Origin: Croceitalea dokdonensis DOKDO 023
Lineage (GTDB): Bacteria; Bacteroidota; Bacteroidia; Flavobacteriales; Flavobacteriaceae
Length of the DNA stretch: 64,000 nt
Assembly (NCBI RefSeq): GCF_001306415.1
Contig: NZ_LDJX01000001.1
Coordinates: 62,001-126,000 of the forward strand
Direction of reading: 5' to 3'
Notes under the pieces: generated by a model
The model's input: only the letters and a program-made list of their open reading frames with translations
Database searches by the model: none
Told to the model about the DNA's origin: nothing
Shown: piece after piece, positions 50,182 to 60,227 of the stretch
Layout of the letters: every line of letters begins with the position of its first letter
How positions within the stretch are numbered: the stretch's first letter is position 1
Program-made: the position numbers and the translations under genes

Positions 50182-51354
50182 ATGCAATCTAAGACTATTG
50201 GATTAAATACCATTTGTACCCATACCGGAGAAGTAAGGGATGAACAGTTTAAAGGGGCGGTATCTCCCATTTACATGTCAACCTCCTACGCTTTTGAGGA
50301 CGTTGATGTAAAACGATACCCCCGTTATTTTAATACCCCCAACCAAGAAGCATTAGGGAAAAAGATTGCCGCTTTGGAGCATACGGAAGCGGGAATGATT
50401 TTTACGAGCGGTATGGCCGCCATAAGTCATGCTTTGATGGCATTTTTAAAAGCTGGGGACCATGTGGTCTTTCAACAGACACTGTATGGTGGAACATATA
50501 ACTTTGCCACGACCCAACTGGAGCGTTACGGTATTTCCTATACGTTTTCTGATGGGTGGGGGGCAGCCGATATTGCCAAAGCAGTAAAGCCAAATACCAA
50601 GGTGGTTTATATTGAAACCCCATCCAATCCATTGCTTACCATCACCGATATGAGGGCCGTTGCCAATTTGGCGAAATCCAAAGGAATTGTGAGTATGATC
50701 GATAATACTTTTGCCAGTCCCGTAAATCAAAACCCTGCAGATTATGGGATTGATATTATCATCCACAGTGCAACCAAGTATATGGGAGGCCATTCAGATA
50801 TCTGTGCCGGTGCGGTTGCGGCATCAAAGGAACATATGCAACAAATTTGGCATTCTTCCATTTGTTTTGGAGGAAGCTTAAGTGACCAGACCGTATGGTT
50901 GTTGGAACGTAGCCTTAAGACCATGGGGCTGCGGGTTAAGGCACAAAACCAGAATGCCCAGGGTATGGCTATTTTCCTGCAAGCGCATGAAGCTATTGAT
51001 CAGGTGTATTATCCTGGACTGCCCTCCCATGAAGACCATCATTTGGCTGCATCCCAAATGCACGGTTTTGGAGGAATGCTTTCCTTTGAGCTTACCCGGG
51101 AAATAGAACCATCGGATTTTATGAAACAACTTCAACTCATTAAGCCCTCCATGAGTTTGGCGGGAGTGGAGAGCACCATGTTGCTGCCTGTTGCTACCTC
51201 CCATTCCCTAATGACGCCTCAAGATCGGGCAGCCCAGGGAATTAAGGATGGCCTCATCCGTTTTTCTGTTGGCATTGAAGAGTTGGATGATTTAAAAGCT
51301 GATATTGCCCAAGCCCTAAAAGCGGCAACCCAAAAATCCGCTATGACGATATGA
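50182..51354 (+). CDS. PLP-dependent trans-sulfuration enzyme (Cys/Met metabolism family)
   Basis: The 390-residue fold-type I enzyme has the PLP site SATKYMGGHSD with the Schiff-base Lys (about 201), the FTSGMAAISHALMAF phosphate-binding stretch and EKT-like tyrosine region YGGTYNFATTQLE. Such enzymes include cystathionine gamma-synthase/-lyase, O-succinyl- or O-acetylhomoserine sulfhydrylase and methionine gamma-lyase; the sequence alone does not decide. Its stop overlaps the start of the bshB1-type gene (ATGA at 51351-51354), which ties it to thiol metabolism and makes a cysteine-forming role attractive. Confidence 0.88.
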   Translation: MQSKTIGLNTICTHTGEVRDEQFKGAVSPIYMSTSYAFEDVDVKRYPRYFNTPNQEALGKKIAALEHTEAGMIFTSGMAAISHALMAFLKAGDHVVFQQTLYGGTYNFATTQLERYGISYTFSDGWGAADIAKAVKPNTKVVYIETPSNPLLTITDMRAVANLAKSKGIVSMIDNTFASPVNQNPADYGIDIIIHSATKYMGGHSDICAGAVAASKEHMQQIWHSSICFGGSLSDQTVWLLERSLKTMGLRVKAQNQNAQGMAIFLQAHEAIDQVYYPGLPSHEDHHLAASQMHGFGGMLSFELTREIEPSDFMKQLQLIKPSMSLAGVESTMLLPVATSHSLMTPQDRAAQGIKDGLIRFSVGIEELDDLKADIAQALKAATQKSAMTI

Positions 51355-52073
51355 AATTGGATATTTTAGTATTTGGTGCGCATCCGGACGATGCCGAGTT
51401 GGGTGCCGGAGCAACTATGGCCAAGGAAATCGCAAATGGGAAAAAAGTTGGGATTGTTGATTTGACCCGTGGTGAACTGGGCACCCGTGGAACAGCGGAA
51501 ATCCGTGATGCAGAAGCTGCCAAAGCGGCTCAGATACTTGGGGTTTCCGTAAGGGAAAACCTTGAGTTTGCCGATGGTTTTTTTGTAAATGATAAACCCC
51601 ACCAATTAGAGATTATAAGGATGGTACGCAAATATCAGCCGGAAATTGTGCTTTGCAATGCCATTGATGACAGGCACATTGATCATGGAAAGGGCGCAAA
51701 ATTGGTAAGTGATGCCTGCTTTTTGAGCGGGTTGGTAAAAATAGATACCAAAGTGGACGGTGGTGAGGATTGGCAAGAACCATGGAGACCTAAACTGGTA
51801 TACCATTACATACAGTGGAAAAATCTAAATCCGGATTTTGTAGTGGATGTTTCTGGATATATGGAAAAGAAAAAAGAGGCTATCCTTGCTTATGGATCGC
51901 AGTTCTTTGATCCAAATAGCGAAGAGCCGCAAACGCCGATAAGTAGCAAGAATTTCTTGGATAGTGTGGAATACCGAGCACGTGACCTGGCCAGGCTCAT
52001 AGGTACTGAGCACGCAGAGGGCTTTAACGTGGAACGCTTTGTTGCGGTAGATAGATTAACGGATTTGGTGTAG
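51351..52073 (+). CDS. bshB1: Bacillithiol biosynthesis deacetylase BshB1
   Basis: The 240-residue zinc deacetylase removes acetyl from GlcNAc-malate in bacillithiol synthesis. Zinc and catalytic residues are visible in FGAHPDDAELGAGAT (AHPDD) and RHIDHGKG (about 105-110), and the LTRGELGTRGTAEIRDAEA stretch is typical of BshB1. It is translationally coupled to the upstream PLP enzyme gene (4-base overlap). The other bsh genes are not in the window. It is convergent with the first kinase gene, with 17 bases between stops. Confidence 0.93.
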   Translation: MKLDILVFGAHPDDAELGAGATMAKEIANGKKVGIVDLTRGELGTRGTAEIRDAEAAKAAQILGVSVRENLEFADGFFVNDKPHQLEIIRMVRKYQPEIVLCNAIDDRHIDHGKGAKLVSDACFLSGLVKIDTKVDGGEDWQEPWRPKLVYHYIQWKNLNPDFVVDVSGYMEKKKEAILAYGSQFFDPNSEEPQTPISSKNFLDSVEYRARDLARLIGTEHAEGFNVERFVAVDRLTDLV

Positions 52074-52090
52074 CGGAAAGCAACGGGAGT

Positions 52091-54178
52091 TTAACCAGCC
52101 TTTTTATATTTTTTCTCCACTTTTGGGATGGTGAAATTAAAGGTCGACCCTTTTTTAGGAACACTTTCTACCCATATTTCACCATTGTTTTTCTCCACCA
52201 TTTCCTTACATAGGGAAAGCCCTAGACCAGTCCCTTTTTCATTGTTGGTGCCATAGGTCGTAAATGTGGATTGGGTCTCAAAAATCTTTTGCTGCGTGCT
52301 CTCATCCATGCCAATACCGGTGTCCCTTACAATTATCTGCCAGAATTTATGTTGCTCTTCACACTCAATGGAAACAAGGCCGTTTTCTTCTGTGAATTTT
52401 ATGGCATTGGATACCAGGTTGCGCACAATAATGTCAAAATGGTTCTCATCTACATAACCAAGCGGATTGTCCGGTAGTTGGTTCAGGATTTTTATTTGTT
52501 TTTTATTGGCCACCTCAGATAAAAGCTTCAGGTTTTGTGCTACCACTTTGTTAAGGCAGGTCACCTTTGGTTTGGTAGAGGTGCCATTCATTTGTGCATA
52601 TCCCCAGGAAAGTAGATTATTAAGGGTAAAAAGAATGTGGTCTACATCGGCCTTAAGTTTTGGGACAAAGTTTAAAAAGTCCTTATCAGGAAGGTCTCCA
52701 CTTGCATTTAACCTTAAGATTCCTTGCAAGGCTCCTATGGGTCCCCGTAAATCATGTCCAATGATTGAAAATAGTTTATCCTTGGTATTATTAATTTCAT
52801 GCAGCTGCGCTTCCCTATCCCTAAGATTCTCAGTTTTTAGGTTGAGCTCTTTATTGAGTTGTTTTTGCTTTTTGTGGTTAAGGTATAGCGGTATGGAGGT
52901 AGCCAATAGAATCAACAGAATTGCCAGCGTAACAAAAATAATGTACCGTTGTTTGGCAAGAGCTTTATCGTTGTCCGCAATAAGCGCTTTCTTTTGTTGG
53001 TCATATTGGAATTTGGTTTTTAACAGATTGAGGCTGCGCTGGTTTTCGTTTCTTGACAAGGAATCATGTAATTTTTGATAGTTTTCGTGGAAAGTCAGTG
53101 CCTGTTGGTAATCTGCTCCATTCTTATATACTTGATACAGGGTTTCCTCACAGTCCCGCTGTCCCTGCAAATCATTTATTTTTTTTGAGGACTCTAGTCC
53201 TTTGTAAGCATAATTCCGTGCCTTTTCATCTTCTCCAATACCAAGAAATGCCTTGGCAAGACCATTATTAAGGTCAATGGTCGCTCTTTCATCATCAAGG
53301 TCTTTATGTAAGATTTCGCACTGTTCATACCAATAAATGGCCCAGTTATATTTTTTTTGTTTTAGGTAAATTTCGCCCTTAACACTGTAAGCAAACGCAA
53401 GCCAGTCATAAATTTCCCTTTTTTCAAATACGGATATGCTGCTGTTAATACTAAACATGGCAAGGTCAAAATCGCCCATATCTGCATAAATGGAAGCTAT
53501 ATTGCTCAGTGTTTCTGCGGTAAAAATTTCGTTATTTAGGCTTTGATTTATTTTTTTGACGATATCATAAAATTCAAGTGCTTGCTCATACTCTCTCTGC
53601 GAGGCATACATGTTCCCAATGTTTTCATTTAAAATGGACAACATTTTTTGGTCGTTATGAAGCTTGGCCAAATCTATTGCCTTTAAAAACCGCTCTAGTG
53701 CTCTTGCATAGTTCCCTTGATACGAATACTCTGATCCAAGATTGTTTAAAATGGAGACTTGAATTTTACTTTTATCGTGCTTCTCTGCCAGCTTAAGCGC
53801 TTGCTTAAAAAAGGATATGGCGGTGGTGCTGTTGCCATCATCCGAACTATGCCCACCTAAGAGATTTAATGCCTTAATACGGCCCGCAGTGTAATTAATT
53901 TGTGTACTTAGTTGAAGACTTTTTTCGCTTAACTGTCTTAGACTGTCTTGATTTTTAAACCGATATGCGGACCCCAGACTTAAAAGTGCGTCTACGTAAA
54001 CACTGTCTTTTTCTTGTAAAGAATTGGAAGTGGAATATCTCTTGATAAGCTTGTTTAAGCTGTCTATAGTTGTGTTTTGAGAGGATGAATGACCCGTAAT
54101 AGCTAAGAAAAAAAGCAGGGAAGCCAAAAGTTTCCATTGGTGCCGTAAAGGATGTATATGATTCTTATTTTTGGGCAT
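52091..54178 (-). CDS. TPR-containing membrane sensor histidine kinase (first of three tandem paralogues)
   Basis: Starting at ATG 54178 (another at 54187; the longest frame begins with TTG) the protein has 695 residues: signal/anchor, a periplasmic array of TPR repeats (about 45-390), one membrane helix (YIIFVTLAILLILLATSIPL), a coiled coil, a HisKA-like helix pair with the phosphoacceptor in FSIIGHDLRGPIG (His codon 52754-52756) and an HATPase_c domain (NLVSNAIKFTEENG, VRDTGIGMD, EKGTGLGLSL). No response regulator or DNA-binding domain is fused or nearby. It is the closest to a normal kinase, together with the third copy. Confidence 0.9.
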   Translation of the reverse strand: MPKNKNHIHPLRHQWKLLASLLFFLAITGHSSSQNTTIDSLNKLIKRYSTSNSLQEKDSVYVDALLSLGSAYRFKNQDSLRQLSEKSLQLSTQINYTAGRIKALNLLGGHSSDDGNSTTAISFFKQALKLAEKHDKSKIQVSILNNLGSEYSYQGNYARALERFLKAIDLAKLHNDQKMLSILNENIGNMYASQREYEQALEFYDIVKKINQSLNNEIFTAETLSNIASIYADMGDFDLAMFSINSSISVFEKREIYDWLAFAYSVKGEIYLKQKKYNWAIYWYEQCEILHKDLDDERATIDLNNGLAKAFLGIGEDEKARNYAYKGLESSKKINDLQGQRDCEETLYQVYKNGADYQQALTFHENYQKLHDSLSRNENQRSLNLLKTKFQYDQQKKALIADNDKALAKQRYIIFVTLAILLILLATSIPLYLNHKKQKQLNKELNLKTENLRDREAQLHEINNTKDKLFSIIGHDLRGPIGALQGILRLNASGDLPDKDFLNFVPKLKADVDHILFTLNNLLSWGYAQMNGTSTKPKVTCLNKVVAQNLKLLSEVANKKQIKILNQLPDNPLGYVDENHFDIIVRNLVSNAIKFTEENGLVSIECEEQHKFWQIIVRDTGIGMDESTQQKIFETQSTFTTYGTNNEKGTGLGLSLCKEMVEKNNGEIWVESVPKKGSTFNFTIPKVEKKYKKAG

Positions 54179-54304
54179 GAATAGCATACTGGCTATAACT
54201 TCCAAAACTATCTTAATTGGTATTCCCTTACCAATATTTGTTGTGAATTCAAGGTTATTGTGTGTTTAAGCGAAACAAAAGGACCGTTTGTCGGTTATTT
54301 ATAT

Positions 54305-56263
54305 TCAATCAAAATAAATTAACACTTCAGTACCTTTGCCAACTTCACTTTTATACCCCAATCTGGCTTTGTTGATGTTAAGCAGATAGCGACAGATAGA
54401 AACGCCTATTCCAGTACCCTTCTCATTTAATGTCCCAGGTTCTGATTGGTGCTGTTTGTTCTGGCCCAAATTCGATAGGATTTCCTTGGTCATCCCCAAC
54501 CCGTAGTCTTTAATGGAAAGGATTGTGCCATCCATTTTGGCGTTACAGGAAATTATTATTTTCCCCTTGGGATGAGAATATTTAATGGCATTATAAATAA
54601 GGTTTTTTAGGATAATGCTCAGGTGGTCCTTATCTATAAAGGCTTGTTGGGATTCAGCTATCTCATTGGAGATGACGATGTTTTTTTGGTTTACCTGAAA
54701 AGCGAAAACAGCGCAAACTTTTTCTACCTCAATGTTTAGGGCCACATATTCCCGTCTGGGGATAATATTCTGTAATTCTGACTGTGCCCATATAAAAAGA
54801 TTGTTTATGGCGAATAATCCCTTGTCCACGTTGGTTTTTAATTGTGGTGCCACTCTTTTAAATTCCTGTGGTGTAATACCCTGTTGATTATAAACTTCAA
54901 GTAATTCCCTTAAGGTGGCGACCGGGGTTTTTAAATCACCGGCTACAGTTTGGAATACCCTATTTTTGGTCATGTTCAATCTTGTTAATTCCAGACTGAG
55001 CCTGTTTTGGGTTTTTTTATTCCTAACGATTAGAAAAATGATTAGCCCAGCTGTAAGCAAAAGGGCCAAAGATATATAACCAATTGATTTTTGACTCCGT
55101 ATTTTCTGTTGGTTCTGTGCGATAATGGCAGATTCCTTATTATCAAAATTGAGTTTTGCCTTTAATAACTTTACATTATCCGTACTCTTTTGTTCGTTTA
55201 TTCGTTTTTGGGTGTTTATCTGTTGCTCTAGATAATGCAGACTTTTGTTTTTGTTATTTTTCTTTTTTTGGAGTTGCCATAACAGTTCATAGCTCTGTTG
55301 TAGCCGGTTTAAATCATTAAGGGCTTGTGCGGTTGTTTTAGCCTTTTCCGCATAGTGGAGTGCTTGATCTACTCCGCCGGAACGGAAGTGTATTTGAGCA
55401 CGCAAAAGATGGATTTCTAGAAGGTCACGAATACCATCCATACCCTCTAATTGCTTTGCCGAATTTTCAATGAAATTTTGTGCAGTATCAAGGGAATCTT
55501 GCGCGAGTTTAACTCTGCCCATTACGCGGTAACCCCTGGATAGCCAGAGGGGGTCCTTCTGTTTTTTAAGTAAATCCATGGCCAATTGGCCGATGGAATC
55601 AGCGGGGCGAATGGCATTTTTGTTAAGATGGTTTAGGGCAAGGTTAGATAAGGTCCTCGCCTTTTCGAATACAGCATTGGTAGCCTTATATAAAGCCAAG
55701 GCGTTTTGATACTCCGTCTCCGCCTCATCATAAAGTTGGTTTTGCCAATAGACATATCCTAAATTATGCCTTAATATGGCTTCTGTGTAGGCATTGTTTA
55801 TCCTTTGGGCATCCTTTATGGCCTCGTTGTAGGTGGTTACAGCATTCTTTGGGTCACCTTTCCATTGATGGAATAAAGCTAAACTCTTTAGTATCTCTAC
55901 CTCAAGGTCTTTGTACCCAAGTTTTTCTGCTTTTTGTTTCGCTTCTTGGTAAAAGGCTAAAGCTTTTTCCATTTTGTTGATATCGTCAAAATAGTTGCCA
56001 ATCCTTAAAGTAGCCATCACCTTACCGTAGGAATACCCTCTATCTTCACTTAACCGTAATCCTTTTTGCGCAAAAAAAAGGACACTGTCTGATTTTCTAA
56101 AACTGTATGATTTAGCTCTATTTAGAAGGCTGTCAATTTCAGGGTCCTTGATGCGGTTTGTTGTGTTTAACCAAGGACTGGTATCAGTAGTATCCCTACC
56201 CATGCATCCCACAAGCAGGGACATCAATAAGGTTAGGCTTAGTATGTGGAGTGTATGTTTCAC
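54305..56263 (-). CDS. TPR-containing sensor kinase homologue lacking the phosphoacceptor histidine; lipoprotein-type N-terminus
   Basis: The 652-residue protein follows the plan of its two neighbours: TPR repeats (about 45-370), membrane helix (SIGYISLALLLTAGLIIFLI), coiled coil, HisKA-like helices and HATPase_c. Two things are odd. The H-box reads FQTVAGDLKTPVATL: Gly442 (codon GGT, 54938-54940) stands where both paralogues have His. The ATP-binding part looks intact (LKNLIYNAIKYSHPKG; IKDYGLGMT; NEKGTGIGVSI). The N-terminus is a lipoprotein signal (LMSLLVGC, Cys about 20). It may bind ATP and act as a regulator or partner of the flanking kinases; that is inference. Confidence 0.88.
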   Translation of the reverse strand: MKHTLHILSLTLLMSLLVGCMGRDTTDTSPWLNTTNRIKDPEIDSLLNRAKSYSFRKSDSVLFFAQKGLRLSEDRGYSYGKVMATLRIGNYFDDINKMEKALAFYQEAKQKAEKLGYKDLEVEILKSLALFHQWKGDPKNAVTTYNEAIKDAQRINNAYTEAILRHNLGYVYWQNQLYDEAETEYQNALALYKATNAVFEKARTLSNLALNHLNKNAIRPADSIGQLAMDLLKKQKDPLWLSRGYRVMGRVKLAQDSLDTAQNFIENSAKQLEGMDGIRDLLEIHLLRAQIHFRSGGVDQALHYAEKAKTTAQALNDLNRLQQSYELLWQLQKKKNNKNKSLHYLEQQINTQKRINEQKSTDNVKLLKAKLNFDNKESAIIAQNQQKIRSQKSIGYISLALLLTAGLIIFLIVRNKKTQNRLSLELTRLNMTKNRVFQTVAGDLKTPVATLRELLEVYNQQGITPQEFKRVAPQLKTNVDKGLFAINNLFIWAQSELQNIIPRREYVALNIEVEKVCAVFAFQVNQKNIVISNEIAESQQAFIDKDHLSIILKNLIYNAIKYSHPKGKIIISCNAKMDGTILSIKDYGLGMTKEILSNLGQNKQHQSEPGTLNEKGTGIGVSICRYLLNINKARLGYKSEVGKGTEVLIYFD

Positions 56264-56338
56264 ATTTGCTTTTTAAGTAGGGCATCACAGTTTTAACCTT
56301 GTTTTGCACAAGAATTGGGGGTACTTTATGTGTTTATT

Positions 56339-58342
56339 TTAAGGAGATGAAAAAATTATTTCTATGCAAGTTCCTTTACCCAGCGTACTATTTATCTTTA
56401 GATTCCCATGGTTAAGCTTTAGAAGTTCCTTGCAAATGTTAAGGCCAATTCCGGTTCCCTTTTCCTTACTTGTCCCTGGTTTAGATATTGGTCGTCCGTT
56501 GATAATTTTTTCAATTGTGGCTATAGACATCCCCACACCATCATCACAAACTGTTAAACTAGGTTGGTTGCCCTGATGGTAAGAAAATATGATTTTACCG
56601 TTTTCATGAGTGTACTTAATCGCATTTGAAATGATATTGCGTAGAATGATGTTAAGGTGTTCCGGATCAATAACAACCTTTGCATCCGTAGGAATTTTAC
56701 ATTCAATAGCTATATTTTTTTTATCTATTTGTTCTTGGTGAAGTGCAACAACGTTATTACCTGCTGTTTTAAGCGTAACGCTCTCTGGCCTACTTTTTAT
56801 ACCATTTAATTGCTGCTGGGCCCAAAACAATAGATTATTAAGCGTAAAAGCACTATGGTCCACGTTGGACTTTAACTTAGGGGCTATTTTTAAAAATTGC
56901 TCTGTGGATAACTTATCACTCTGGTATAGGGACAAAAGTTCCTGTAATGTGCCAATGGGTGCTTTTAGGTCATGGCCAACTATGGAAAAGACTTGATCTT
57001 TTGTCCTACTTATTTCTTTGAGACGTGCATTGGCCTTTTTTTGTATTTGGATGTTTCGCCGAATCAATAAAAGAATGGCGATTAGGACAATTAAAGATAG
57101 TACGCTAACGGTGGTAATCAGCTTTTGTTTTTTTAACTTGTTTTGGGATGTGAGTTCCAATCTCCTTTGTTGTTGTTCAAATTCCGTTTGCGCTTCAAGC
57201 ACCAATAATTGGGTTTTACTCGCTTCCACCTTAATAGAATCAGAAATCCTTGTCGCCGTTTCTAAATACGTTAGCGCTAAATCATTATTGTTTTCTTTCT
57301 TGTTGATTTGATATAGGAGGTTAGATGCCCTAATGATACCATCATAATAATTAATGGATTTGGAATTTTTTTCACCAAGGACAGCTTTTGCCTTACTTTT
57401 GCCCAAGTCATTTTCAAGCAAATAAATTTCGGCATAGGCCAAATCTTTTTCTACTTCGCGCTGTTTATCATCAATGGTTTCTAGTAGTTCTTCTGCGAGG
57501 TTTAGATAGTGTTTTGCTTGGGTAATGTCATTTCTTTTGATACAGGCTTCTCCAGCATTTACTATGGCAAAAGCGGCCCACGCATTAATTCCTTTTTTTT
57601 TGAGGTAATCAAACGCCTGAATCCCATAGTTTTCTGCAAGGGTGTAATTGCCTTTTTTGTTTTGCAAATAACTTAAGTTGCTTTTGATCTGTGCAAGACC
57701 AATACTATCTGTGGTGCTCTCCAGTAATTTTAGTCCTTGTTCATAATAATTAAGGGCATTTTCGGTATCCTTTAATAGCAAAAAGCCAGTGGCAAGGTTA
57801 ATGGTGAATATAAATTCCATTTTACTTATATCGTACTCCTTGGCCTTTATAGCTCCGGTCTTTCCCACCATGTAGCCCTTAGGAAAATCCCCACGCTTTA
57901 GGTAATTCATGCACTGTACATTAAGGGCTGCCAGTTCCAGACTATCACTGCTAGCGGCCAATGCTAAATTCTCGGATTTTTTAGCATAGGTCATACCCTT
58001 TTCAAATTCCCCTTGTAATGTTGCTCCGGTGGCTAAGGCCAAGTAACCACCTGCCACACCTTGTTCAAATTTATAGTTGAGGCTTAGGTCTATAGCCCTT
58101 TGGCCAACGGACAAAACACTGTCATAATTTTGATACGCATAACTTCTCGCGAGCAGATAAAGCGTTTTTAAGTAGTTAGTGTCATTTGGCTGAAAATTAC
58201 CTTGGGATTCATAGTAGCGTCTGCGTTGCTCCAGACTATCTTTTAAATGCTCTTGTGCATTTAGGGTACAACAAAAAAACTGGACAAAGGTAACTGCCAA
58301 TATACAGAAATGCACATTTGTTTTTTGGCCATTTAAAAGCAT
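56339..58342 (-). CDS. TPR-containing membrane sensor histidine kinase (third tandem paralogue)
   Basis: The 667-residue protein has a signal segment (CILAVTFVQFFCCTLNAQ), TPR repeats (about 60-370), one membrane helix (LITTVSVLSLIVLIAILLLI), a coiled coil, HisKA-like helices with His457 in FSIVGHDLKAPIG and an HATPase_c domain (LRNIISNAIKYTHENG; CDDGVGMS; EKGTGIGLNICKELL). Stretches such as FLKIAPKLKSNVDHSAFTLN are clearly shared with the other two, so all three arose by tandem duplication. It is the most upstream of the leftward trio, 75 bases before the next, and lacks a neighbouring response regulator. Confidence 0.9.
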   Translation of the reverse strand: MLLNGQKTNVHFCILAVTFVQFFCCTLNAQEHLKDSLEQRRRYYESQGNFQPNDTNYLKTLYLLARSYAYQNYDSVLSVGQRAIDLSLNYKFEQGVAGGYLALATGATLQGEFEKGMTYAKKSENLALAASSDSLELAALNVQCMNYLKRGDFPKGYMVGKTGAIKAKEYDISKMEFIFTINLATGFLLLKDTENALNYYEQGLKLLESTTDSIGLAQIKSNLSYLQNKKGNYTLAENYGIQAFDYLKKKGINAWAAFAIVNAGEACIKRNDITQAKHYLNLAEELLETIDDKQREVEKDLAYAEIYLLENDLGKSKAKAVLGEKNSKSINYYDGIIRASNLLYQINKKENNNDLALTYLETATRISDSIKVEASKTQLLVLEAQTEFEQQQRRLELTSQNKLKKQKLITTVSVLSLIVLIAILLLIRRNIQIQKKANARLKEISRTKDQVFSIVGHDLKAPIGTLQELLSLYQSDKLSTEQFLKIAPKLKSNVDHSAFTLNNLLFWAQQQLNGIKSRPESVTLKTAGNNVVALHQEQIDKKNIAIECKIPTDAKVVIDPEHLNIILRNIISNAIKYTHENGKIIFSYHQGNQPSLTVCDDGVGMSIATIEKIINGRPISKPGTSKEKGTGIGLNICKELLKLNHGNLKINSTLGKGTCIEIIFSSP

Positions 58343-58441
58343 AAGCGGTGATAAGGTAACTTTGGACTGTTAATATAGCACATTAAATGGTTAAAACACC
58401 AAATAACACAAAGACTTCTAAAAATTTCTTGTGGCTTTTAT

Positions 58442-58473
58442 TTGGAATCATACCTTAAAAAAAATTACCTTTG
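58442..58473 (+). promoter_or_regulatory. Promoter of tRNA-His (TTG-N21-TACCTTTG)
   Basis: TTG at 58442-58444 and TACCTTTG at 58466-58473, 21 bases apart. The -7 element ends 14 bases before the tRNA, so processing of a very short leader is expected. Confidence 0.65.
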
Positions 58474-58487
58474 CCACCGCTTAAATG

Positions 58488-58564
58488 GTGGTTGTAGCTC
58501 AGTTGGTTAGAGCGCTTGATTGTGGTTCAAGAGGTCGCCGGTTCGAACCCGGTCTTCCACCCCA
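58488..58564 (+). tRNA. tRNA-His (GTG anticodon)
   Basis: A full cloverleaf with D arm GCTC...GAGC, anticodon arm CTTGA-TTGTGGT-TCAAG carrying GTG, T arm GCCGG-TTCGAAC-CCGGT and an encoded CCA end. A G sits just before position 1 (58487), the G-1 needed for His identity, opposite discriminator C73. The acceptor stem GTGGTTG/CTTCCAC has U-U at 5:68 and 6:67. Promoter and terminator flank it. Confidence 0.95.
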
Positions 58565-58568
58565 AAGT

Positions 58569-58598
58569 AAAAAGTCCTGAACACATCAGGACTTTTTT
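58569..58598 (+). terminator. Rho-independent terminator of tRNA-His
   Basis: Stem AAAAAGTCCTGA (58569-58580) and TCAGGACTTTTT (58586-58597) with a 5-base loop and one more T, 4 bases after the tRNA. It may also serve the leftward M28 gene, whose stop is at 58656. Confidence 0.85.
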
Positions 58599-58655
58599 GG
58601 TTTTCATAAGTAATCAAGCGTTTAAATCCCTAGCGGTACAGTTGATTTAAGGCTC

Positions 58656-60227
58656 TTATTTAGCTGTGCTTGCTTTATCCACGATAAGCTTATTCTCCCT
58701 ATTGGCTATATCCCAAGCTGTGTAAAAAACAAGCTGGGTTCTATTGGTCAATAAGTCATAGTTGATTTTGTCAGGAGTATCCGTGGGCTTATGGTAATCC
58801 GCGTGGGTTCCGTTAAAATAAAAAATGATAGGGATATTATTTTTTGCAAAGTTGTAGTGGTCACTTCTATAATAAAATCGGTTTGGGTCATTTTCATCGT
58901 TATAGGTGTAATCTAGTTCAATGTTCATATGTTTTTTGTTCACCTCCTCGGAAAGTTCATGCAGCTCCGTACTCAACTTATCGGAACCTATAAGATAAAT
59001 ATAATTTCTATCTCCAGTTCTTTTGGGGTCTATCCTTCCTATCATATCAATATTTAGGTTGGCAACGGTTTCGTTTAACGGGAAAATAGGTTCGTAGTCC
59101 GTATAATACTTAGAGCCAAGCAATCCTTTTTCCTCGCCTGTGACATGTAAAAAAACTACGGACCGATCGGGGCCGTTACCTTCATCGGCCGCTTTTTTAA
59201 AAGCCTCTGCGATTTCTAGCAGGGCCACAGTTCCAGAACCATCATCATCCGCGCCATTGTTAATTTGGCCATCTCCCGTAATCCCAATATGGTCCAAATG
59301 GGAAGAAAGCACTACATATTCGTTGGGTTTGGTCTTTCCTTTAATGAAGGCCACCACATTTTCTGATTCTACAGAATTGTCCTCACTTTCAATATTAAAA
59401 TCAAGTTTTTTATCTATCAGTTTATTTTCTGATGCTTCTAAAATATCAGGATAAATGGCCAAGGCCACCTTTTCATTGATGAGCATCATAAATTCCTTGG
59501 CGCGTTCCGCAGTTAACTGCATTCTGCCGCTATCATTGGTTTTCATAAATTGAAAATAACGTCCATAACGGCTAAAGTTGTCCGGGTCTAGATAAAGCAT
59601 TCCTTTGGCTCCTTTGCTCATGGCCAACTCACTGCGCTTGCCCAACGCCTCTGACATATTGCTCCAAACAGAGACCTCATCCGTACCTGAAATAAGATAG
59701 CTGCCATCTGCATTTTTTGGCTCTCCAGACTTGACCAGTACAATTTTATCGGTTACGTCTATTTTCCCATAATCCGTGTACTTTTCATCTTCAATTCCGT
59801 AACCAACATAAACAATACTACTGTAATTTCCCTTTACTTCTGAAAAGGTTAAAATGTCTTCACCAACGGTGAAAGCAGAATTTTCAATGGTCATGGTTCC
59901 CTGTGGTACTTTGCTTAGTTCAAGTGCTACTTCCTGAAAGTAATTACCGTCTGGTTGAGCAGCCGGTATTCCAAGTTTTTCGTATTCCTTTTTTAAATAG
60001 TCCACAGCTTTTTTTTGTCCAGGCTCCCCAGTTTCCCTACCTTCAAATTCATCAGAAGCATAGATAAACAGGTGTTCCCTTAGTTCTTCCTCCGTAATGG
60101 ATTTTGCATATGTTGGCGCCAGTTCGGCCTTGGCAATGGAAGTTGATTTTTCGGTGCCGCTTGTGGTTTTCTGTGAAGAGTTACAAGATAACGCTAGCCC
60201 AAGGGCGATTACATAAATTTTTTTCAT
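58656..60227 (-). CDS. M28 family metallopeptidase lipoprotein with PA domain
   Basis: The 523-residue protein has a lipoprotein signal (MKKIYVIALGLALSC, Cys about 15), a PA-type insert (about 110-250) and an M28 domain with the two-zinc ligands visible: SSHLDHIG (His), NGADDDGSG (Asp), HVTGEEKGLLG (Glu), NIDMIGR (Asp) and THADYHK (His). It is an aminopeptidase-type enzyme on the periplasmic or outer membrane face, releasing N-terminal amino acids from peptides. It starts 57 bases after the AraC gene on the same strand, which may tie peptide use to the hydroxyproline operon. Confidence 0.9.
   Translation of the reverse strand: MKKIYVIALGLALSCNSSQKTTSGTEKSTSIAKAELAPTYAKSITEEELREHLFIYASDEFEGRETGEPGQKKAVDYLKKEYEKLGIPAAQPDGNYFQEVALELSKVPQGTMTIENSAFTVGEDILTFSEVKGNYSSIVYVGYGIEDEKYTDYGKIDVTDKIVLVKSGEPKNADGSYLISGTDEVSVWSNMSEALGKRSELAMSKGAKGMLYLDPDNFSRYGRYFQFMKTNDSGRMQLTAERAKEFMMLINEKVALAIYPDILEASENKLIDKKLDFNIESEDNSVESENVVAFIKGKTKPNEYVVLSSHLDHIGITGDGQINNGADDDGSGTVALLEIAEAFKKAADEGNGPDRSVVFLHVTGEEKGLLGSKYYTDYEPIFPLNETVANLNIDMIGRIDPKRTGDRNYIYLIGSDKLSTELHELSEEVNKKHMNIELDYTYNDENDPNRFYYRSDHYNFAKNNIPIIFYFNGTHADYHKPTDTPDKINYDLLTNRTQLVFYTAWDIANRENKLIVDKASTAK

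Follow-up and report, generated by a model that had tools for sequence, protein, structure and literature searches.

The three-gene kinase row

We analyzed a stretch of 64,000 nucleotides from Croceitalea dokdonensis DOKDO 023 (the window), which contains three tandem genes for TPR sensor kinases, all on the minus strand. K1 (52091..54205) and K3 (56339..58342) are intact paralogues, with CAT codons for the phosphoacceptor histidines His484 (52754-52756) and His457 (56972-56974), respectively. K2 lies between them at 54305..56263. Its open reading frame begins with GTG and encodes 652 amino acids, and its Pfam domains and a structural model identify it as a putative TPR sensor pseudokinase. 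The H-boxes read FSIIGHDLRGP in K1, FQTVAGDLKTP in K2, and FSIVGHDLKAP in K3. A preliminary description had reported that the middle kinase lacks the phosphoacceptor and that its neighbors retain it, and when we checked the codons, this was correct: K2 has GGT (Gly442, 54938..54940, minus strand) where K1 and K3 have CAT. In phmmer alignments to solved histidine kinases, Gly442 also falls under the phospho-His of SrrB and HK853 ("vagdlktp" in K2 vs. "VSHELRTP" in SrrB and "ISHELRTP" in HK853).

As we read the sequence, K2 has a periplasmic TPR region (residues 40-390 or so) and a TM segment at about 392-414, followed by the DHp domain (about 417-507) and the CA domain (about 508-652). The ATP-binding boxes, which we located from conserved columns, are the N-box at residues 554-561 (N554, N558, and K561; 54581..54604), the G1 box at 586-591 (DYGLGM; 54491..54508), and the G2 box at 616-621 (GTGIGV; 54401..54418), all on the minus strand. 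Pfam finds TPRs and HATPase_c (E = 8.2e-16) in K2. At E ≤ 0.001, the HisKA model matches none of the three proteins, including the intact ones, so it is uninformative about K2. The DHp assignment comes instead from alignment (the C-terminal part of K2 matches SrrB with E = 1.5e-16 and HK853 with E of about 8e-15) and from the fold model.

The AlphaFold2 model of K2 has TPR helices, a single long helix that crosses the membrane into the DHp domain, and then a CA domain. Its mean pLDDT is 87.2 and its pTM is 0.61, with the DHp domain as the less certain part (pLDDT of 67-78 over residues 421-500). The top PDB matches of the model are HK853 complexes (the first is a DHp-CA structure, with TMt of 0.81); the DivL structure 4q20 is at rank 28 (TMt of 0.79). 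In other words, K2 has the DHp-CA fold and the N, G1, and G2 boxes of a sensor kinase, and it lacks the acceptor histidine.

We also noticed other features of the row and of its relatives in this genome. By eye, K2 begins with a lipoprotein-like signal that ends in LVGC; in the other K2 proteins that we compared, the ending is closer to that of an ordinary signal peptide. A gene for tRNA-His (window 58488-58564) adjoins the row, which we dismissed as a coincidence. Scans of 51300-58750 for promoters and terminators gave no excess over shuffled sequence (20 sites vs. 19.1 for promoters and 9 sites vs. 7.7 for terminators). Receiver domains have 44 matches across the genome and none in the window (C1:62001-126000); the nearest is at C1:136151. 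Outside the row, the closest relative in this genome (L078:5543-6679, G000:C12) is a protein of 378 amino acids with a receiver domain before its kinase module, and its surroundings look by eye like sugar-nucleotide genes.

Loss of the acceptor site and retention of the ATP site

As a reference for conservation, we used 53 intact relatives, in which 38 columns are conserved in at least 95% of the proteins. K2 keeps 19 of the 20 that lie within the CA domain, in agreement with the earlier claim that its ATP-binding motifs are intact, but 7 of the 12 that lie within the DHp domain. It also keeps 4 of the 5 conserved columns of the TPR part and the single one of the linker. The DHp domain has retained significantly fewer of these columns than the CA domain (P = 0.018, Fisher exact test; P = 0.042 if column 442 is left out). 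Two near-invariant neighbors in the H-box have also changed (S438Q and I439T), the codon for Gly442 is two bases away from CAT, and no histidine is present in residues 417-507.

The branch leading to K2 is very long (2.11, the longest in a tree of 48 rows, or 1.87, the third longest in a tree of 61 rows). Since the conserved columns were kept in the CA domain and lost from the DHp domain along such a branch, K2 is, as judged from its sequence, a protein whose ATP site was held while its acceptor site was lost. Calling it a pseudokinase, as had been proposed, seems fair: K2 cannot accept phosphate at the canonical site, and the ATP motifs were held on one of the tree's longest branches. Among 91 distinct TPR-kinase homologues (from loci that were fetched for their similarity to these kinases, and hence not a random sample), 85 have His at column 442, 4 have Lys, 1 has Gln, and only K2 of the window has Gly.

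Counterparts in related genomes

We compared the locus in 23 genomes, including that of the window. The neighborhood of the kinase row is conserved in these relatives. The flanking genes on one side are presumably of the cystathionine-synthase-like and PIG-L types, and those on the other side we take to be M28-type peptidase, AraC-type, DHDPS-like, and aldehyde-dehydrogenase-like genes (some of these names come from Pfam). K1 is the only kinase at 9 of the 23 loci, and the other 14 have two to four kinases. No close relative turned up: within the genus set, the nearest hit to K2 has 32% identity, and a search of genome contigs found one distant locus.

Five of the 14 multi-kinase loci have a member without the histidine. 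These are K2 in the window (Gly), K2 in genomes G194 and G433 (Lys), K3 in G432 (Lys), and K3 in G002 (Gln). Conversely, 6 of the 9 K2 counterparts at this locus have the histidine (those of G116, G370, G432, G428, G005, and G002). The K2 gene of G002 is split over two contigs, so we assigned it by position only and kept it out of the trees. This result rules out an old, conserved clade of pseudokinases, and it is compatible with a functional protein. The loss is not conserved among orthologues; a kinase fold without an acceptor, in an open frame that has been kept, is what we find. The preliminary description had suggested that if orthologues carried the histidine, then the change might be a sequence error or a recent local mutation. 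Such orthologues do exist, which formally counts against its interpretation, but the reading as an error or a one-off event does not hold up, because the acceptor was lost separately four to five times (see below).

Two proteins from G180 belong to the K2 clade but are encoded at another locus, so they are not part of the count of nine. They lie in tandem (L074:5879-7897 and L074:8390-9919) and are the mirror case of K2, as the histidine is present and the aspartate of the G1 box is replaced (NEGVSI and NEGDKI). The second of these genes seems to be split at its start. In G364, four very similar TPR kinases in tandem (L075:2127-11350) all have the histidine.

Repeated loss of the acceptor

At the locus, the histidine was lost from 0 of 24 K1 proteins, 3 of 9 K2 proteins, and 2 of 13 K3 proteins (P = 0.019, Fisher exact test). 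After merging near-identical rows, the losses are 0 of 22 for K1 vs. 5 of 20 for K2 and K3 (P = 0.018), and if G194 and G433 are counted as a single event, 0 of 22 vs. 4 of 19 (P = 0.038). These tests ignore the relatedness of the proteins. A sixth case comes from another genus. In G299, a non-syntenic row of three tandem TPR kinases (L175:5426-12406) has lysine at the acceptor position of the middle kinase (FSLISKNLKGP). (By eye, a short ORF on the minus strand at 4130-4531 of L175 has a receiver-like beginning.) Overall, 4 of the 6 proteins without the histidine have lysine instead, with codon AAA, but the events are few and the genome is low in GC.

Parsimony on the full-length tree gives five changes of the acceptor state. 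A clade of the window's K2 with those of G194 and G433 is not rejected, however (P = 0.566), and the tree with this constraint is slightly better than the free one, so we consider four to five separate losses to be a fair statement of what the sequences imply.

Three of the proteins without the histidine kept their ATP boxes: K2 of the window, the middle kinase of G299 (20 of 20 CA columns), and K3 of G002 (18 of 20). In the other three, the boxes are damaged, either mildly, as in K3 of G432 (17 of 20, with D586N and G590V), or severely, as in K2 of G194 and of G433 (4 of 20). Even these last two have frames of 637 and 639 amino acids and keep 4 of the 5 conserved sensor columns. That the loss recurs in gene rows of one kind, while the genes retain long open frames, speaks against error as well as accident. 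Because related bacteria have lost the same residue several times in such rows, K2 is probably a working helper protein and not a mistake.

Separate histories of the sensor and kinase halves

We built separate trees for the sensor (residues 40-390) and for the kinase module (without column 442), with the careful versions based on 23 chosen rows. In the sensor trees, K2 and K3 form separate clades (SH-aLRT support of 100 and 99 with 61 rows; 100/100 and 100/99 with 23 rows). In the kinase-module tree, K2 and K3 are intermixed and the K1 modules lie apart. For example, K2 of G116 groups with K3 of G116 (100/99), and K2 of G432 groups with the K3 proteins of G370 and G432 (93/90). The kinase-module tree rejects a single K2 clade (P = 2.2e-7), a single K3 clade (P = 1.5e-5), and a K2 clade without the window's protein (P = 3.6e-8). 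The contrast is visible in the proteins themselves: K2 and K3 of G116 are just 14-22% identical in three stretches of the TPR part, but 72, 53, and 51% identical in three stretches of the kinase part. As read from these trees, K2 and K3 have traded kinase modules with each other and not with K1, a conflict between the two halves that is masked in the tree of whole proteins.

For the K2 of the window, a link of its kinase module to K3 is no more than suggestive. It is 19-23% identical to the window's K3 in the TPR stretches and 41% identical across the kinase module (232 columns), and its closest kinase module is that of K3. In comparison, its identity to K2 of G116 is 22-42% in the TPR stretches and 31-39% in the kinase stretches. 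The kinase-module tree groups the window's K2 with K3 proteins of its genus (those of the window, G004, and G002), but at a support of just 63/82. A pair of the window's K2 and K3 is absent from the best tree but is not rejected (P = 0.31), and neither is a pairing of the window's K2 with that of G116 (P = 0.097); a set of the K2 proteins from the window, G370, G432, and G428 is weakly rejected (P = 0.041). We also looked in four genomes for recent gene conversion between K2 and K3, in the form of near-identical DNA, and found none. Since the longest identical runs are 11-19 bases, the exchange is, by this measure, old.

A proposed role for K2, and alternatives

The preliminary description had suggested that the middle protein may heterodimerize with its neighbors or modulate them. 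Since K2 and K3 swapped kinase modules with each other and K1 took no part, the domain trees point to K3, rather than K1, as the putative partner of K2. (We dropped K1 as the likeliest partner, as its kinase module stays apart.) An exchange with these limits fits modules that have to work together, whether in mixed dimers or with a shared regulator. Also, at the columns that correspond to HK853 positions 268, 271, 272, 298, and 301, the residues of K2 are T, E, L, L, and N, identical to those in K3 of the window, while K1 has A, G, I, L, and D. (We mapped these positions from the phmmer alignment; according to PDB entry titles, the rewired positions of HK853 are 268, 271, 275, 294, and 297.)

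We propose, with a probability of about 50%, that K2 is a sensory pseudokinase that is paired with K3, as a heterodimer and/or via a shared response regulator, and that feeds in a signal of its own; we infer both the partner and the output. The TPR domain of K2 would read this signal, and K2 and K3 would act together, either as a mixed dimer or by way of a response regulator that both use and that is encoded elsewhere. The signal would then shift the balance between the kinase and phosphatase activities of K3. Since the ATP domain was kept, K2 might phosphorylate the histidine of K3 across the mixed dimer, or else ATP might serve as a conformational switch. (Trans-phosphorylation across a dimer is described for VirA in PMC4030172.) It counts against the proposal that most K2 counterparts have the histidine, so that its loss is not needed for the K2 role.

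Within this proposal, K2 may act mainly as a phosphatase. It has the residues of the phosphatase motif (HD/E-x-x-T/N), with D443 at +1 and T446 at +4 matching E261 and T264 of HK853, and it is the only one of the window's three kinases with threonine at +4: K3 has alanine, and K1 proteins have glycine in 23 of 24 cases (and serine in one). According to PMC3510030, threonine or asparagine at +4 is required for phosphatase activity, while the histidine enhances the activity but is not required. In the strictest version, K1 and K3 would phosphorylate and K2 would only dephosphorylate. We think that this is unlikely, as the other five proteins without the histidine have S, A, G, S, and K at +4, and as threonine is also found in K2 of G005 and K3 of G427, which have the histidine, so it is not tied to the loss. 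Because the threonine is not common to the proteins without the histidine, it hints only weakly that K2 may be biased towards phosphatase activity. It is similarly unlikely that K2 is a reader like DivL, that is, a kinase fold turned sensor that binds a phosphorylated response regulator or a partner kinase and relays its state without catalysis. DivL also lacks the acceptor (it has tyrosine) and keeps the other boxes, and it is inactive both as a kinase and as a phosphatase (PMC4211667); the K2 model also matches its structure, and K2 keeps residues of the K2/K3 type at positions that touch the regulator in HK853. But a fold match of this kind is seen throughout the family, with HK853 first, no response regulator is linked to the row within the window, and orthologues do not share the change, which sets K2 apart from DivL.

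Another explanation is relaxed constraint: the K2 and K3 copies might be dispensable, and K2 might be on its way to being lost. K2 is absent from many relatives, as shown by the loci with K1 alone. Decay would also give a long branch and altered neighbors in the H-box, and in G194 and G433, K2 has lost its ATP boxes as well. We give this explanation no better odds than the previous two, because K2, at roughly two changes per column, still has a frame of 652 codons and nearly all of the conserved columns of its CA domain, and because even the fully dead proteins of G194 and G433 retain long frames and most of their sensor columns. We see very little chance of a sequencing or assembly error, or of autophosphorylation at another residue. 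Apart from the histidine in K2 counterparts, we found nothing in favor of either. We rejected an error at Gly442 because two bases and neighboring residues (S438Q and I439T) differ, and the DHp domain offers no other histidine.

More broadly, rows of TPR kinases could be receptors that form mixed dimers, in which the sensors diversify, the K2 and K3 modules remain compatible because they are traded, and a spare histidine is dropped repeatedly (often for lysine), leaving an ATP-binding, input-only subunit that drives its neighbor. We consider this generalization to be less likely than not.

Comparison with known systems

Most of the bacterial pseudo-histidine kinases that are known so far are single cases. 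In the open-access papers that we searched, we found no report of tandem TPR kinases that have lost the acceptor, nor of exchange of kinase modules among them. In these rows, acceptor losses can be counted on a tree beside intact sister genes, so one can ask at what point, and for what reason, a kinase subunit turns into an input-only one. The rows also make it possible to ask if mixed dimers of neighboring kinases occur in nature, and the exchange of modules between K2 and K3, without K1, leads to predictions of pairing partners.

That a dead histidine kinase can control a living one is shown by DivL (PMC4211667), RocA (PMC7028121), RetS (PMC5992135), and a ChrS that evolved in the laboratory (PMC9491836), and the term pseudo-histidine kinase domain has been used for RcsD (PMC3762810). 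Like K2, DivL of Caulobacter has a histidine-kinase fold with a replaced acceptor and the other boxes kept, and it modulates another kinase, as K2 may do. But the sensors of DivL are PAS domains and its tyrosine is conserved, while K2 has a TPR sensor, a glycine that is found in this genome alone, and its own paralogues as neighbors in the row. Another membrane sensor pseudokinase, RocA of group A Streptococcus, acts through the kinase CovS, but it keeps a dispensable histidine and has a degraded ATP domain, which is the reverse of K2.

In the RetS/GacS system of Pseudomonas, the member that cannot autophosphorylate controls the other one, partly via a phosphatase motif with threonine at +4, as might be the case for K2. 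Unlike K2, RetS keeps the histidine, has no G-boxes, and carries receiver domains as a hybrid kinase. The ChrS pseudokinase and HrrS of Corynebacterium resemble what we propose for the K2 row in that a dead paralogue improves signaling by the intact one, and the native paralogues heterodimerize. The dead ChrS arose in laboratory evolution, though, with a truncated ATP domain, and the truncated form did not heterodimerize in the assay described, whereas K2 has an ATP domain that appears intact.
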